Assembly: GCF_000591035.1 (NCBI RefSeq)
Contig: NC_022521.1
Coordinates: 496,001 to 560,000, forward strand
Source: Aeropyrum camini SY1 = JCM 12091
GTDB taxonomy: Archaea > Thermoproteota > Thermoprotei_A > Sulfolobales > Acidilobaceae
Length of the DNA stretch: 64,000 nt
Direction: 5' to 3'
How positions within the stretch are numbered: position 1 is the stretch's first letter; each line of letters begins with the position of its first letter. The notes under the pieces were generated by a model, which saw only the letters and a list, made by a program, of their open reading frames with translations, did not search any database and was not told where the DNA came from. This document shows, piece after piece, positions 2,290 to 46,870 of the stretch. A program made the translations under genes and the position numbers.

Positions 2290-3309
2290 GTGAGAGTCTG
2301 GGGTGGATTAGGGTTGGAGGACCTCTACCTCTCTTGGCCCAGATGGTTTTCGGAGGCGCTGGCCAGGTACGGCGGCCTTGAGGGGGCTCTTGAGGGGCTC
2401 GAGGAGATATACTACTGCGGCATGGGCGGGAGCGGCGCTGCGGGAGACTATGTAGAGGCGCTGCTGAGCCTCCATAACCCCAAGGGGCCGGAGTTTAGGG
2501 TTGTCAAGGACTTCAAACCCCCCCGACCCCCACGCCACAGGGGATACGGCCTAGTCCTAGCCAGCTACTCTGGAAACACCGTGGAGACTCTGGAGTGCGG
2601 ATCCCTCCTCCACCGAGACGCGGGCATGGTTGCGGCGATAACCTCGGGAGGGCGCCTGCTAGACATGGCTAGGGACATGGGCTGGCTGGTAGCCCGCCTA
2701 CCCCCGGGGATACTCCCACGCGTCTCATTTCCTTGGATGCTGGCGGCTGTTATCGCTATGCTCTCCAAGTCTCTGGGCGTGGATCTACAGTCTCTGGGAA
2801 GGCTGGCTGGCAGCATAGACATAAAGAGCCTTGAGACGGAGGCCGAGGGGCTGGCCCGCTCCCTATCTGGCCACAGGATAGCAACTATCGTTACATGCGG
2901 CCCCGGCACCCCACTGGGAGTCAGGCTTAAGAACGAGCTTGCCGAGAACGCTAAGATGCCCTCCAGGCTGGAGATCTATCCCGAGTCGTCGCACAACGAC
3001 ATAGTGGCCCTAGAGGCTTCTGAAGGACTCTACGCCGCTGTGCTCATAAGGGTCGACCAGGGGGGCAGCCGGTGTTCTGAGGTCCTCGACGTCGTCGATA
3101 GCATTTACAGGGAGTACGGTGTGGAAACCGCGAGTATACGAGCAGGCACCGGGGGAGGAGCTGGCGGTACTGTTGTAGAGTACCTTTCAAAAACACTCGT
3201 CTTCGGCCTAGCCAGCGTCAGGCTCGCCGCCTTGAGGGGCTTCAGCCCCGAGGAGACGCCTCCCATAGAAAAGTATAAGAGCAGGATAAAGGATGTTCTA
3301 CGCATCTGA
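2290..3309 (+). CDS. Bifunctional phosphoglucose/phosphomannose isomerase
   Basis: The protein interconverts glucose-6-P or mannose-6-P with fructose-6-P. It belongs to the crenarchaeal PGI/PMI branch of the SIS-domain isomerases. Visible motifs are the first SIS glycine loop CGMGGSGAAGDY (about residue 40), the substrate loop SYSGNTVETL (about residue 95), and PESSHNDIVA (about residue 235) with the expected catalytic Glu and His. The PMI function may also feed mannose phosphates toward the mannosylglycerate genes at 41.7-43.7 kb. The start is a GTG four bases after the preceding stop; later starts are possible because known enzymes are about 325 residues. Confidence 0.9.
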   Translation: MRVWGGLGLEDLYLSWPRWFSEALARYGGLEGALEGLEEIYYCGMGGSGAAGDYVEALLSLHNPKGPEFRVVKDFKPPRPPRHRGYGLVLASYSGNTVETLECGSLLHRDAGMVAAITSGGRLLDMARDMGWLVARLPPGILPRVSFPWMLAAVIAMLSKSLGVDLQSLGRLAGSIDIKSLETEAEGLARSLSGHRIATIVTCGPGTPLGVRLKNELAENAKMPSRLEIYPESSHNDIVALEASEGLYAAVLIRVDQGGSRCSEVLDVVDSIYREYGVETASIRAGTGGGAGGTVVEYLSKTLVFGLASVRLAALRGFSPEETPPIEKYKSRIKDVLRI

Positions 3310-4975: not shown

Positions 4976-5127
4976 GCTACCAGCCGGAGGGCGTCTGTAG
5001 TCCGCGGTAATCTCTTCACAACAGCTCAGGTGGGGGCAAGTATCGTCATCCGCCCGTGGATCATGCTTTAAGCCTCGAAGGGTAAAACTATTGGGCCTCA
5101 AGAGCGTAGGATGGGATTATAGGGGTG

Positions 5128-5186
5128 TGGTGATGATTTACTCCCGGACCGAGCACTGCTGTGAGGACTACTTACCCGGCTGAAGT
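5128..5186 (+). ncRNA. Candidate box C/D guide RNA
   Basis: A C box GTGATGA (5130-5136) and a D box CTGA (5180-5183) are separated by 43 bases, the usual archaeal geometry of about 55-60 nt in total. Between them lie a weaker D'-like CCGA (5149-5152) and a C'-like TGTGAGG (5160-5166). The element lies in the gap between SRP19 and the next gene and includes no credible reading frame. Guide targets were not determined. Because C' and D' are degenerate, this is a probable but unproven call. Confidence 0.5.
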
Positions 5187-36778: not shown

Positions 36779-37069
36779 CTAAGCCAGGAGCTCGCGGGGA
36801 ACACCTCTCCTCCTAACATAGTCTCTCAGGGGGGCCGAGAGGTTGTAGCAGCCCACACCCTCCTCTAGGAGGCCCAGCTCCACAAGCCTTGATATAACCT
36901 CCTCAGGCTCCTCCACACCCTGGTGCTTAAGCTCCTCTACAGCTTTGATCTCCCCTACAGATATATTCTCGAAGAAGTATTTCAGCACCCGCCTCTCAAC
37001 AGCCCCCAGCGATTCAACAAGGGAAAGTAGCTTGTCTACACTCTCCCCCACAGCAGGCCCCACCCCCAT
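36779..37069 (-). CDS. Small winged-helix-like protein
   Basis: The 96-residue protein has the pattern of a winged helix: [20 protein letters not shown], then [19 protein letters not shown] and a short [11 protein letters not shown] wing. The upstream DNA is shared with the divergent trm5 gene (41 bases), so an autoregulatory or local repressor role is possible. The start codon ATG at 37069 is close to that gene. No family assignment is made. Confidence 0.6.
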
Positions 37070-37110
37070 TTAATACCCTATAGCCTCCCGCGGGGTATTT
37101 ACCTGGTATA

Positions 37111-37989
37111 ATGGAAGGGGAAGCCTTGGCGCTGTTGAAACATATAGCAGAGGAGGTGCTAGGCAGGGACAAGGCTGTGCTGCTCTGGAAGAGGATAGAC
37201 GTTATCGGCGATATAGCGGTTATCAAGAAGCCCATGCATGGTGAGGTGAGCATAGAGGATTTGAGGCTGGTAGCAGGGGAGCTTCTCAAGAGGCTACCGC
37301 ATGTTAGGAGTGTGTGGCTCGCTCTAGGCCCCGTGGGTGGGGTGTACAAGGTCAGGCAGAATCTAGTGCATCTAGCGGGTGAGAGGAGGACCTCGACAGT
37401 TTACCGGGAACACGGTGCCGTATTCCTCGTGGATATATCGAAGGTTTTCATAACCCCCAGGCTTAGCTACGAGCACCTACGGGTAGCTAGGCTTGTGAAG
37501 CCTGGGGAAACCGTTGTCAACATGTTCGCCGGGGTAGGTATCTTCTCTATAATCATAGCGCTCAAATCCAGGCCTAGTAAGGTTTACAGCATTGATATCA
37601 ACCCGGAAGCACACAGGTTAATGGTAGAGAATATCAGACTCAACAGAGTGGAGAGAGTTGTCGAGCCTCTGCTAGGCGATTCTGCGAGGGTGGTTAGCGA
37701 GAGTCTAAGGGGAGTCGCAGATAGGATTTTAATGCCCCTACCCGACCTAGCCCTAGATTACATAAAATATGCTTTAGAAGCCCTCGGGGGAAGAGGCTGG
37801 CTCCACGTCTACCTACATGTAGACTATGAAAAGGGGAAGGGACACTTAAGAAGGGCATGCGAGCTGGTGAAAAGCAGGGTAGAGGAGAGGGGGTGGAGGC
37901 TTATCAAGTCCAATGCCAGGGTAGTGAGGAGCGTAGGACCTAAGCTTCTCCAGGTCGTTGTCGACGCCGAGGTGGAGAGGTATGGGTAG
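37111..37989 (+). CDS. trm5: tRNA (guanine(37)-N1)-methyltransferase (Trm5 family)
   Basis: Trm5 makes m1G37 of tRNA-Phe, the first step of wyosine synthesis. The Rossmann-type SAM site is NMFAGVGIFSIIIA followed by YSIDINPEAHRLMVENI. The DRILMPLPDLALDYIKYAL segment resembles the NPP-equivalent and the following helix of Trm5. At 292 residues it is a short form. It could be Taw2, a close relative, but Trm5 is favoured by the IMPLP-like motif. The stop overlaps the Taw3 start, and both serve the same modification. Confidence 0.82.
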   Translation: MEGEALALLKHIAEEVLGRDKAVLLWKRIDVIGDIAVIKKPMHGEVSIEDLRLVAGELLKRLPHVRSVWLALGPVGGVYKVRQNLVHLAGERRTSTVYREHGAVFLVDISKVFITPRLSYEHLRVARLVKPGETVVNMFAGVGIFSIIIALKSRPSKVYSIDINPEAHRLMVENIRLNRVERVVEPLLGDSARVVSESLRGVADRILMPLPDLALDYIKYALEALGGRGWLHVYLHVDYEKGKGHLRRACELVKSRVEERGWRLIKSNARVVRSVGPKLLQVVVDAEVERYG

Positions 37990-42568: not shown

Positions 42569-43732
42569 CTAGACGGCGAAGTAGTAGCTGTCGTTACTCT
42601 CCGCTATGAAGGAGGCGAAGACCTTCCTCGGATCTGTCCCTGCAGGTTTATATACAGAGGGTTTCGGAGGCTCCTCCCTGAGTCCCAGGCTCTTAAGCTG
42701 GGCGAGTATCCTGCTTCTCACTTCCTCGCCTGCAAGTGTGGAGTGGAATATGGTCCCGAGGCTTACAGCCGTCATCTCAGCAATGTGCTCATCACCCCTC
42801 TCGGCATGTATATGGGGATTCAGGGGGGAGACCTGCCTGACCTCGATATAGTCCGGCGCTATAGGGCATTTGCCTTGCCGCAGGCCCAGGTAGCAGTTCT
42901 CCAGCATCCAGACCAGCTGGTACGTCTCCACCGCGAAGCCGCTCCCCCAATCCATCTCCATACCCAGCTTCACGGTGAGAGCCTGCTCGCCGGAGTTGCC
43001 CGTCTTGACGATATCAGTCTCTATCCTCTTGTGGATGGAGAGAGTGTAGTTGAGAACGCTGTTAGTTATAGTAGAAACCCTACCCCTCTTCCTCAGGTAC
43101 ATGTCGCTGGCGGCCAGCTTCCCCTTGTAGGGCCAGACTATCCTTACCATGGAATAGCTGCTTGTGGCTCTTGAGAGGGAGGAGTAGTATATCCACGAAT
43201 ATTCTAGGGCCGAGCCGGGGACGTAGTTGTCGCTGTCCACATAGCCAACGAAATCGGCGCCGAGCGCCGCAGCGACTATAAATCCTAGGAGCATGCCCTC
43301 CCCCTTTCCCTTCCTGACCCTACCGCTGGCGCCGATCATACTCTCGAGGGGGGTGCCGGAGAGGGCCTCGCCCCAAGCCGGGTCGAACTGGTAGACTATC
43401 GCTATATCCCGGTGCAGGCTCCTGCTTATCAGGCGGGCTAGCTCCACCTCATTGGAAAACCTGTCCACAGGCTCTCGGGTCGAGGCGGAGACGACAACCA
43501 CCGGCGACTCTGTTGGTATGGAGCGGAGCACGTTCTCAAGGGTGAGAAGATCCTCATCCTTCACAGGCACCACTATAACGGTCTTAGCAGCAGCGTCCTC
43601 AAGCTCGCCCCTATCAACATAGACAAGGTTAGACGGCTTAGACTTGGGCCGCCCGTCAAGTGATAACACACGGCTGACGTCGTATATCCTCACTGCACCG
43701 AACACTTCAAACTTCGCTGGGAGGCTCAGCAT
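42569..43732 (-). CDS. mpgS: Mannosyl-3-phosphoglycerate synthase (GT55)
   Basis: The enzyme joins GDP-mannose and 3-phosphoglycerate, the first step toward mannosylglycerate, a thermal and osmotic protectant. The GT-A fold is visible: VIVVPVKDEDLLTLENVLRS, then GMLLGFIVAAALGADFVGYV with the metal-binding DSDNY. The C-terminal NPHIHAERGDEHIAEM fits MpgS. The ATG at 43732 gives the same N-terminus (MLSLPAKFEVFGAV) as known synthases; a GTG at 43753 is the alternative. The isomerase at 2.3 kb could supply mannose-6-phosphate. Confidence 0.9.
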   Translation of the reverse strand: MLSLPAKFEVFGAVRIYDVSRVLSLDGRPKSKPSNLVYVDRGELEDAAAKTVIVVPVKDEDLLTLENVLRSIPTESPVVVVSASTREPVDRFSNEVELARLISRSLHRDIAIVYQFDPAWGEALSGTPLESMIGASGRVRKGKGEGMLLGFIVAAALGADFVGYVDSDNYVPGSALEYSWIYYSSLSRATSSYSMVRIVWPYKGKLAASDMYLRKRGRVSTITNSVLNYTLSIHKRIETDIVKTGNSGEQALTVKLGMEMDWGSGFAVETYQLVWMLENCYLGLRQGKCPIAPDYIEVRQVSPLNPHIHAERGDEHIAEMTAVSLGTIFHSTLAGEEVRSRILAQLKSLGLREEPPKPSVYKPAGTDPRKVFASFIAESNDSYYFAV

Positions 43733-43994
43733 CAACCCCCGAAACCACCCCACAGGCTAACTAGACCCCCGGGAGACCGCTCACGCTGGCGCCTAGGAGA
43801 TAAAGGCTTCCCGGGGCTAGGGCTACGGAGCCAGCTAATCCCCTATCTAAATGGGTGTCCTGAGGGTTCTTAAAGAAAATTGAGGCTGCCGAGGCTTTTT
43901 ATCGGTAGGCATAAGACCCGGGGCCCCGCTTTGAGGAAAGACAGAATATAGCCTGCACAACCCTATAATCCCCAGGGATAGAACTGGTAGCAGT

Positions 43995-44073
43995 GGGCCC
44001 GTAGCTCAGCCAGGACCAGAGCGCCGGCCTGCGGAGCCGGAGGTCCCGGGTTCAAATCCCGGCGGGCCCGCCA
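43995..44073 (+). tRNA. tRNA-Arg (anticodon GCG)
   Basis: A complete cloverleaf is present: acceptor GGGCCCG (43995-44001) with CGGGCCC (44063-44069), anticodon loop CTGCGGA between CCGGC and GCCGG, and T-arm CCGGGTTCAAATCCCGG. The anticodon is GCG (Arg, codon CGC). Discriminator G at 44070 and encoded CCA at 44071-44073 follow. The TATA-like CCTATAATCC lies about 25 bases upstream. Its 3' half is repeated at 46.8 kb. Confidence 0.95.
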
Positions 44074-44131
44074 CAAAATCATCCACTAAATCATTAATCT
44101 GTGTTGACAGGAAGAGTCTTAAGCTAACATT

Positions 44132-45215
44132 CTATTGCTCTATTGATTTCTTTATCTTGTGGTATATGCATTCGCCTCCGCAGCATGAAACCGTTAGCTC
44201 TGCAACCTCTTCTAGATCCATGGCTTTGAGGGCATCTAAAACTATACTGATAAGCCATTTCCTATACCCTATACAATGCGTATTCTTCTGAGAGTTCGGG
44301 TTTTATGCCGAGGATCTCTTCTGGGGTCTTGTGCCAGAAGGGTTCTATCCCGGATTCTTTTTCTGCCTCTAGTATCGCCTCCTCTAAAAGTTGTATGTAT
44401 TTTCCTATCTTGTGGTGCTTCTTTCTTTCTTCTCCAAGCTTATCTATAACCCTTAGTCCGATAGGAATCTAGAAATCTTTTCCATTTTTTCCATTGAGGG
44501 TCTTCCTTGTTTGCTTCGTTTATCATGGCTGTTAGCTCTGAGAGGGTTATGTAGGGGTTTCTCATTTGGTCTGCGTAGGCTCGGAGGTATTTGTCCTGGT
44601 ATTTTTCTTGAGGGGAGGATTTGGGCTATTTCTTTGGAGTATTTCCAGCTTGCCTTTAGGATGTACTGGCATATCTTGTCCCTGTCTTTTACGCCATGTT
44701 TTAGGGCTTCGTTTAGAAGGATGGCTGTGAGCATCCACGGTGGTTTCATCGTGTTGTCTGGCCTGAATAGTTAGTGGTATTCTTTTATGTTTTGCATGAG
44801 TTTTTATGTGAGGGTCGTCTATTTCCTTTTCTCTTTGTAGGAGCTCTTGGTAGGCCCTGTCGTACTCCGCCAATAGCTGCTTGTATGCCTCGTCTATTGT
44901 CGTGTCTACTATGTATATGTACCGGTCTATCTGCTCCTTTGTGAGTTGGGGCGGTGCGGTTTCCTGTAGGTGCTGCTTCTTCTTCCTTATGTTTCTGAGG
45001 AGGAGCCTGATGAGGATGCTGGCTCCGAGGCCTATCATCTCCCTGCTCACGGCCTTTATCGCCCTATTGTTATGTTTTGGATTGTGAGGGTGTCTGTTGT
45101 GTGGGTTTTTGAGGGACGCTATCCTGTAGCTTGCCAGTGGCTGTCTTTCGAGTAGCGCTTCCCCCATGATCTGTGGTTCTATGGGTTTCTCTTCTTTTCC
45201 GGGCGTTTCCTCCAT
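44132..45215 (-). pseudogene. Frameshifted gene(s) of the decayed element
   Basis: Three or more overlapping frames read as one protein if single-base shifts are allowed. The reading starts at an ATG at 45215 (METPGKEEK-like) and includes LTKEQIDRYIYIVDTTIDEA. It changes frame near 44770-44790, continues with PWMLTAILLNEALKHGVKDR, changes frame in a run of five A (plus strand 44602-44606), and goes on with LRAYADQMRNPYITLSELT. A further frame change at about 44262-44273 leads to a C-terminus with CCGGEC and stop at 44132. I do not recognise the family. Confidence 0.5.
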
Positions 45216-45457
45216 TTCTCGGAGTATCTTCGTATCTTCTCTATTCTTTCTTCTTCCTTCCTTTTCTCGGGTATGAACAAGGAGTCTGCGGTCGTCCCCA
45301 CCGGATAATATCTAAACGTGAGGTACCATATCGGATGATATGGTTCGTATCCTGAGTGCTCTCTACCCTTTTCTATGGCTTGTACGAGCACGTATAGGTT
45401 GAATGTGTGGTTTATGTAGCTTACGTCTTCCGGAACCCTTCTACTTATAATTTTCAT
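45179..45457 (-). CDS. Uncharacterised 92-residue protein of the element (possibly fragment)
   Basis: The ATG at 45457 overlaps the end of the upstream frameshifted gene in the ATGA pattern. The protein has a mixed first half (FNLYVLVQAIEKGREHSGYE) and a strongly basic, charged C-terminus (EKRKEEERIEKIRRYSEK). It overlaps the next frame by 37 bases, and it may itself be a fragment of a longer ancestral gene. No family is recognised. Confidence 0.4.
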   Translation of the reverse strand: MKIISRRVPEDVSYINHTFNLYVLVQAIEKGREHSGYEPYHPIWYLTFRYYPVGTTADSLFIPEKRKEEERIEKIRRYSEKWRKRPEKKRNP

Positions 45458-45888
45458 CAGGATATAGGCTGTATAGGTCGTGCTCGCTTATTCCTTCGAA
45501 CTCTCTTGCGAGCCTCTTCGTGAGCTTGTAGGTTTGGGCAAATGTGTATGCGGTGAATTCGAAGGGCTCTCTGCGCTTCCCTCTTCTTATTGCGTCTGCT
45601 ATTATTATTGTTGGTATCTTGTATACGTTTTGAAGCGTGTTCTTTCTGCGTATTCCCCCTGTTTCTGTTAGTATTGCCTCTACCGTTTTCCTTAAAAAGG
45701 GGTCTTTTACCTCTGGTAGTTTTGCCTTGAGGTATTCTACTGCGTTTGCGTAGTCCTTTCTATGTCCCTCTGCATCTCGTATAGTCTCTCGAGCTTCTTC
45801 TTGAGAGGGAGATACTTAAACTTCTCCCCCTCTCTTCCTCCTTTTTCTTGTCCCGCCTCGTAATATACCAGAATATATCCCAGGCCAA
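45441..45888 (-). pseudogene. Frameshifted gene of the element, two single-base losses
   Basis: A GGAGGT ribosome binding site precedes a TTG start at 45888. The reading begins MAWDIFWYITRRDKKKEEE, shifts in a run of five G (about 45826-45830), and continues KFKYLPLKKKLERLYEMQRD. It shifts again in an AAA run (about 45757-45759) and ends with YANAVEYLKAKLPEVKDPF and a C-terminus at 45441. The span is 448 bases, and restoring one G and one A gives exactly 150 codons. The family is not recognised. Confidence 0.6.
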
Positions 45889-45925
45889 TCTAACCTTAAC
45901 CTCCTACAGTTTCTGTAATTAAATC

Positions 45926-46405
45926 TTACTTTAACTTCTTTAAGGCCTCATTTATGATATTATCCGATATTCTGAACCCGTGTTCTTTAAGTTCTCTTAG
46001 CGCTTGAATTAGCTTGTCCTTATCTATAAGTCCTTTATTATAGGCTAGTCGTAAGAGGCCTATAGTTCCAATGACCTTTAGGTTCATGGATTTTGCCTTG
46101 GATCTTGCGATTCTATCGTCTAGGGCTATCATACAGCCATGCTCAACTGCCACTGCTATTGCCTCTGACTCACCTATACCTAGAGGGTCGTGAAGTGCCT
46201 CCACCAATGCCCTATCCTGTGGAGCCAAAACCTTTACTTTACCTTGATTTATAAGGATTTCTAGCTCCTTTGAGCCAGGCCTACCACGGCCTTTAGCGAC
46301 GACCTCCCCGTAAACTGCATGAGGCACAATTATCTCAATGTTAAGAACCGATATTATATCAGTCATATTTAACTTTGCAAGCGCTATTATAACGCTGGAA
46401 TTCAT
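45926..46405 (-). CDS. PIN-like toxin (DUF3368)
   Basis: The sequence follows the DUF3368 family of PIN-like nucleases: MNSSVIIALAKL with the first acidic-site Asn/Ser region, then VPHAVYGEVVAKG, GIGESEAIAVA, and the catalytic-type ALDDRIARSKAKS. Such proteins are RNase toxins partnered by UPF0175 antitoxins, which is what lies just upstream. The ATG at 46405 is conservative; a TTG at 46435 overlapping the antitoxin stop would give the ten further residues usual in the family. The gene is intact, unlike its neighbours. Confidence 0.8.
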   Translation of the reverse strand: MNSSVIIALAKLNMTDIISVLNIEIIVPHAVYGEVVAKGRGRPGSKELEILINQGKVKVLAPQDRALVEALHDPLGIGESEAIAVAVEHGCMIALDDRIARSKAKSMNLKVIGTIGLLRLAYNKGLIDKDKLIQALRELKEHGFRISDNIINEALKKLK

Positions 46406-46427
46406 TACTAGGCAGCGGCTCGGCAGG

Positions 46428-46667
46428 CTACTCAATCCCCAGCTCCTCACGAAGCTCCTCATCACTATAAGGATAAGCTTGTATCCTCCTCCTACGAAGC
46501 TCTACTAGGAAGTCATATAGACTCATTCCAGCCAACTCAGCCGCGCGTTCCACACTAACAATGCCACGGAGAAACAGGTCGACAGCATAAGCTAGTTTAA
46601 CCTCCCTCTCAATATCACCAACATAATGGGAGGGCACCTTAACCTTAACCACTACCTCACGAGACAA
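46428..46667 (-). CDS. UPF0175 antitoxin
   Basis: The 79-residue protein contains a short helix-turn-helix-like region, SVERAAELAGMSLYDFLVEL, followed by RRIQAYPYSDEELREELG, the hallmark of UPF0175 antitoxins. It precedes the DUF3368 toxin with coupled or overlapping translation. It should neutralise the toxin and repress the shared promoter. The ATG is at 46667. Confidence 0.85.
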   Translation of the reverse strand: MSREVVVKVKVPSHYVGDIEREVKLAYAVDLFLRGIVSVERAAELAGMSLYDFLVELRRRRIQAYPYSDEELREELGIE

Positions 46668-46777
46668 CCTCTCTCCCTGCCTTAATTACAATACTCAGCA
46701 ACTCTTATGTTCTTACAGCATGGGATAACCTGTCCCACACGTTATCCTGGGTGATATGAATGAATAGTTTAGAGAAC

Positions 46778-46805
46778 GTCCCAAGTTATCATCAAAGCTT
46801 GGGAC
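46778..46805. repeat. Inverted repeat near the end of the element
   Basis: GTCCCAAG (46778-46785) and CTTGGGAC (46798-46805) are perfect inverted repeats with a 12-base loop, 18 bases from the displaced tRNA fragment. A second pair, GGATAAC and GTTATCC, lies at about 46724-46747. They may be recombinase sites or a terminator. Confidence 0.45.
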
Positions 46806-46822
46806 ATTTGTATTTAAGTGCT

Positions 46823-46861
46823 GGCCTGCGGAGCCGGGGGGTCCCGGGTTCAAATCCCGGC
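46823..46861 (+). repeat. Displaced 3' half of tRNA-Arg (att-like direct repeat)
   Basis: GGCCTGCGGAGCCGG is identical to the anticodon arm of the intact tRNA-Arg, and GGTCCCGGGTTCAAATCCCG matches its T-arm. The two copies differ by one substitution and one insertion in the variable region and diverge after CCCGGC. No 5' half is found upstream, so it is not a functional tRNA. Confidence 0.7.
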
Positions 46862-46870
46862 CCAGGCCCA

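Follow-up and report, generated by a model that had tools for sequence, protein, structure and literature searches.

A probable pseudogene pair of an undescribed protein family beside a tRNA-Arg gene in Aeropyrum camini

The insert and its flanks

The window analysed here is a 64,000-nucleotide stretch of Aeropyrum camini SY1 (positions 496001-560000 in a genome that forms one contig of 1,595,994 bases). Between a tRNA-Arg(GCG) gene on its near flank and a toxin-antitoxin pair (46667-45926) on its far flank, it carries an insert that is single-copy in the genome and has a GC content of 44% against 54% for the window. Most of the frames in the insert are assigned below to a protein family that we call g2, defined here from its intact relatives in other genomes and searched for with the profile of their family alignment (A1). 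The features are:

43995..44073, plus strand: intact tRNA-Arg(GCG) that borders the insert on its proximal side (ARAGORN; Rfam 66.4 bits)
44074..45925, no strand: the insert, replaced by a 66-nt spacer at the matching tRNA-Arg/toxin-antitoxin site of a second Aeropyrum genome (G004)
44135..45071, minus strand: copy B, a g2 gene with broken frames that aligns collinearly with residues 3-259 of an intact 669-codon ORF
45179..45457, minus strand: 92-codon open frame between copies A and B, with coding-like codon use
45441..45888, minus strand: copy A, a broken, diverged g2-type gene (Shine-Dalgarno sequence 45904-45899, TTG 45888, frame interrupted near 45828 and 45757)
45926..46465, minus strand: toxin gene of DUF3368/PIN type, immediately upstream of copy A (Pfam PF11848, E 8.8e-15; PADLOC PDC-S70, E 1.1e-30)
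46428..46667, minus strand: UPF0175 antitoxin gene (Pfam PF03683, E 1.4e-16)
46817..46861, plus strand: degenerate tRNA-Arg 3' fragment (tRNA positions 26-69) that bounds the toxin-antitoxin cassette distally

In G004, which we take to be probably Aeropyrum pernix (K1), a UPF0175/DUF3368-PIN pair 88% identical to that of A. camini lies only 66 nt from the tRNA-Arg, without the insert. The pair also adjoins a tRNA-Arg or tRNA-Arg fragment in G008 and G012, while in G018 such a gene or fragment bounds it on its other side, and the insert is absent from all three. The simplest reading is that the insert was gained in the A. camini lineage, with loss elsewhere as the alternative. The toxin-antitoxin pair (45926-46667, compared with L018) shows a dS of ~0.2 between the two Aeropyrum species, far below the ~0.94 of a neighbouring gene, which suggests recent transfer or gene conversion.

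The tRNA-Arg loci of both Aeropyrum genomes carry tandem cassettes of ~1-2 kb (43995-46869 in the window; 1449-9191 in L017, 7106-11016 in L065, 6624-8641 in L066 and 7596-8846 in L067). Many of these cassettes comprise a leftward AF2212-like/PIN or similar toxin-antitoxin pair and end at a degenerate copy of tRNA positions ~26-79; between species the sets of cassettes differ, and the flanks are up to 96% identical. From their sequences, the loci look like the outcome of repeated site-specific accretion at tRNA-Arg. On the plus strand, 5' of every tRNA fragment, there is a TATTTA(TA) motif with a palindrome (46780-46816 in the window; fragments at 3283, 5323 and 8092 in L017), which reads GTCCCAAG...CTTGGGAC in the window and GTTGCAT...ATGCAAC elsewhere, an arrangement fitting a putative promoter and operator from which the leftward toxin-antitoxin genes would be expressed. 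Elsewhere in the window, 5126-5185 holds the C/D box small RNA sR7 (44.8 bits).

Frame path and the two g2 copies

The original prediction held that several minus-strand frames could be joined into intact genes by restoring single bases at three homopolymers, and the runs are present as claimed (five G at 45826-45830, three A at 45757-45759 and five A at 44602-44606). The good ribosome binding site proposed for the first restored gene was likewise found (GGAGGT at 45904-45899, 10 nt ahead of the TTG at 45888), and its length of 150 codons, stop included, follows from the 448 nt between this TTG and the TAG at 45441 together with the two proposed single-base changes. A codon model whose training set was confined to intact g1 and g2 genes from other genomes (g1 being the gene that precedes g2) gave a best path over 44135-45900 that runs through all three frames: f0 over 45900-45840, then f2 to ~45755, f1 to ~45450, f2 to ~45215, f1 to ~44800, f2 to ~44610, f0 to ~44490, f1 to ~44290 and f2 to ~44160. 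Near 45450 and 45215 the change of frame may simply mark an ordinary gene overlap. All three predicted switches, at ~45828, 45757 and 44605, are returned by this path, which changes frame again at ~44804, 44450 and 44270. Protein and DNA homology agree with the model at 44602-44606, and an alignment to a protein from G013 also changes frame at ~45760; for the switch at 45828 the support is the codon model alone.

Comparison with relatives shows that the damage goes well beyond these sites. A DNA search of 40 relatives gave a 77% match to the second half of the region, in G004, where the counterpart is one open frame of 669 codons. In a frameshift-aware alignment, window positions 45071-44298 match residues 3-259 of this protein with 180 of 255 codons identical (71%), interrupted by frame breaks at ~44804, 44605 and 44451 and by a TAA at 44773. 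When copy B, the G004 gene and another broken copy (G012, L019) are aligned three ways as DNA, the types of lesion become apparent: a 2-nt deletion at ~44804, a GAA-to-TAA nonsense substitution at 44773, an indel in the A run at 44602-44606 and a 7-nt tandem duplication at ~44270, with a further frame break at ~44450. Restoration by single bases at homopolymers is thus insufficient, and of the runs named in the prediction only the A5 run shows a clear homopolymer indel relative to the relatives. The earlier observation was sound but understated the extent of the damage, and is in that sense partly confirmed.

Copy B matches the g2 profile four times (best E 1.9e-27). Past residue 259, the long C-terminus of the G004 protein is replaced by a short Cys-rich tail (CCGGEC) that is common to the broken G012 copy, from which it follows that the g2 family has alternative C-termini; this tail has one clear relative only, and that relative is broken too. 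The G012 copy was broken independently, at a different lesion site. An open frame of g2 length (about 630-670 codons) is absent from the window, where the frames are broken and the N-terminal part alone is represented. By its sequence, copy B is a predicted pseudogene of the g2 family and not a working member. A ...TIGR stretch ahead of copy B resembles the end of g1, though in the search for a g1 remnant at this position its score lies within those of shuffled controls.

The two halves had been treated as genes unrelated to each other, a view that is not supported, both being assigned to the g2 family. The main frame of copy A (45815-45447) matches the g2 profile at positions 50-145 (E 6.9e-6), a profile comparison with the family by hhalign gives E 1.5e-4, and frameshift-aware scores of 72-87 stand against a shuffled-protein maximum of 47. 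A single-sequence search of 197 genomes of the order found no close relatives of this frame. Copy A is a candidate, more diverged member of the family, and its kinship is weak. A recent tandem duplication as the origin of copies A and B was ruled out, their DNA similarity not being significant. The 92-codon frame between them may continue copy A or be a small gene in its own right; a single-sequence search with it (45487-45182) found no relatives in the 197 genomes.

Decay and its alternatives

We consider it very likely that the region is a pair of pseudogenes from the g2 family which has picked up indels as well as a stop codon and is unlikely to make a full-length product. A set of 25 syntenic window genes (22,452 nt) compared with G004 served as a control for disruptions and contained at most one candidate frame break, as against four in the 937 nt of copy B (Fisher p about 1e-5), a density ~90 times that of these neighbours. 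(The gene at 37111-37989 may carry a frame break close to its 5' end, at 36924-37111, where some 50 N-terminal residues of its homologue in G004 match a different frame.) Between copy B and the intact G004 copy, dS is 0.87 and dN/dS 0.22, and the neighbouring gene at 42569-43753 has a similar dS of 0.94; the gene was therefore constrained for most of the time since the two lineages separated. These values suggest that copy B was inactivated fairly recently.

Sequencing or assembly error, in which the genes would be intact in the organism and the frames broken by homopolymer base-calling, might be suspected from the break within the A5 run and from the fact that the broken sequence comes from one genome and one assembly. 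Such errors do not produce a nonsense substitution, a 2-nt deletion or a 7-nt duplication, however; the neighbouring 22 kb of syntenic genes has at most one candidate break, and the G012 copy is broken as well, at another place. We therefore regard this explanation as very improbable. Even harder to credit is programmed ribosomal frameshifting that links the frames into working proteins. The good Shine-Dalgarno sequence just past the toxin stop and the continuity of coding-like codon use across frames would fit it, but there are at least six breaks and a stop codon to be passed, the two broken copies have no slippage site in common and differ in their lesion sites, and the intact relatives are read in one frame with no shift needed. 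The low rank given to frameshifting in the original prediction thus stands. The kinds of lesion in copy B, dense relative to its neighbours, argue against both explanations. It also appears unlikely that the 92-codon frame and the other fragments function as small genes transcribed together with the toxin-antitoxin pair: this frame is open with coding-like codon use, and a Shine-Dalgarno sequence precedes copy A, but the frame has no relatives in the 197 genomes of the order and lies between clearly broken neighbours. The original prediction had further named stop codons scattered throughout the relatives as a finding that would speak against restorable genes, whereas relatives are intact in several genomes.

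The insert may be what is left of a virus, plasmid or other mobile element that integrated at tRNA-Arg, a suggestion that we hold tentatively. In its favour are the adjoining tRNA gene, the low GC of the insert, the patchy distribution of the g2 family, the absence of the insert from the equivalent site in relatives (such as the 66-nt spacer of G004) and the behaviour of the tRNA-Arg loci of the genus as hotspots with tRNA fragments. Against it, an integrase is absent and no insert frame has a significant Pfam or PHROGs match, the predicted g2 structure has no viral fold match, and a repeat of the tRNA 3' end is found only beyond the toxin-antitoxin pair (46817-46861), with none at the inner border at 45926. 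Nor did relatives emerge from phage and plasmid records searched with the region at the DNA level and with intact g2 at the protein level, or from IMG/VR scans for which g2 itself and alignments of g2 and of g1 served as queries. With no integrase and no flanking repeat of its own, the insert can only tentatively be called a mobile-element remnant. Arrival on a mobile element is compatible with the pseudogene explanation as a possible mode of entry. Remnants of integrated elements at archaeal tRNA genes, as in Sulfolobus islandicus LAL14/1, are reported to be often incomplete or extensively degenerated (PMC3718332). The A. camini insert resembles these in having broken genes by a tRNA gene with toxin-antitoxin genes near, and differs in carrying no integrase fragment or recognisable viral or plasmid gene and in belonging to an undescribed family.

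The g2 family and its HerA-linked neighbourhood

Intact g2 ORFs of 669, 645 and 633 codons are found in other genomes. The profile matches 8 of 197 genomes of the order, counting A. camini and other broken or partial copies, and, in a sample of 300 genomes from the phylum, it found no g2 beyond the family-level group of the host. The prediction that the proteins belong to no recognised family was borne out: intact g1 and g2 and the insert frames have only sub-threshold matches in Pfam, PHROGs, NCBIfam and PADLOC, those in NCBIfam falling nowhere near the curated cut-off, and PDB yielded nothing significant. A single helical-bundle match in the PDB sequence search was judged to be due to chance. 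AlphaFold predicts g2 as nearly all helical (mean pLDDT 54), and Foldseek found nothing for this model at E 0.001 or better in PDB or BFVD; the g1 model (pLDDT 39.8) was unusable. From these searches, g2 appears to be an undescribed protein family with a patchy distribution in the Aeropyrum/Acidilobaceae lineage. Archaeal "dark matter islands" share its narrow spread, its fast change and its location in variable loci, together with mobile and defence genes; no mention of g1 or g2 turned up in the passages on these islands that were compared (PMC4158269).

In the relatives the order is g1 then g2, and the g1 C-terminus is Gly-Gly in all four proteins with readable ends. Beside g1, in divergent orientation, G017, G018 and G054 carry two zinc-ribbon genes and a gene for a HerA-like ATPase; the same neighbourhood, cut by contig edges, is seen in G013 and G041, making five genomes in all. 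(The zinc-ribbon gene is flanked by contig edges in G002, G041 and G050, with the g1 start seen in G041.) The putative module is accordingly made up of two zinc ribbons and a HerA-like ATPase, divergent from g1, which has hydrophobic segments, and g2, in toxin-rich variable loci. The ATPase resembles the HerA family (DUF87, HerA_C; DUF87 E 3.8e-8 and 8.8e-10) and departs from known HerA in its N-terminal zinc ribbons and zinc-ribbon partner genes, and no NurA or known effector was recognised as its partner. The g2 of G018 is only distantly related (E 2e-6 by hhalign, and E 2e-18 by tblastn with the G017 protein). In G018 only, E1-like (ThiF E 1.8e-15), E2-like (E 2.6e-4) and JAB-like (E 4.6e-5) genes stand ahead of g1, the latter two below the curated cut-off, and the E2-like gene is present in 1 of 197 genomes. 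The three lie directly upstream of g1 and g2 at L078 7960-14947, where HEPN and PIN genes adjoin. Unlike prokaryotic ubiquitin-like conjugation operons, of which Bil is one, this set has no identified beta-grasp modifier, and its association with g1 and g2 is not conserved. What it has in common with such operons, type II CBASS among them (PMC10449767), are the E1-, E2- and JAB-like genes, which here stand before a g1 that ends in Gly-Gly.

The A. camini genome gave no profile match to g1, and both it and G004 have only distant HerA matches in place of the module-type ATPase. In A. camini, all that seems to be left are two g2 copies of N-terminal type between the tRNA-Arg gene and the toxin-antitoxin pair. 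We suspect that loss of the partner genes, g1 and the module-type HerA, would have left g2 orphaned and without function, and so open to decay; an orphaned component of the zinc-ribbon/HerA set that decayed is most likely what the region represents. G004 retains an intact g2 with merely a short g1 and without the HerA set, so g2 may also have a use of its own. Because of its gene content, we would guess that the intact set is an ATPase-driven, perhaps membrane-associated device for defence or for transport of DNA or protein. It is conceivable, though we advance it with reserve, that the intact relatives define an undescribed archaeal module which could be a new defence or translocation system, the window holding a relic left after loss of the ATPase.

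A decaying gene pair is by itself common beside tRNA genes, and this pair is ordinary in kind. The relic nevertheless points to a protein family not described before, to a conserved HerA-like ATPase neighbourhood in hyperthermophilic archaea, and to tRNA-Arg loci where toxin-antitoxin cassettes with tRNA fragments at their borders accumulate.
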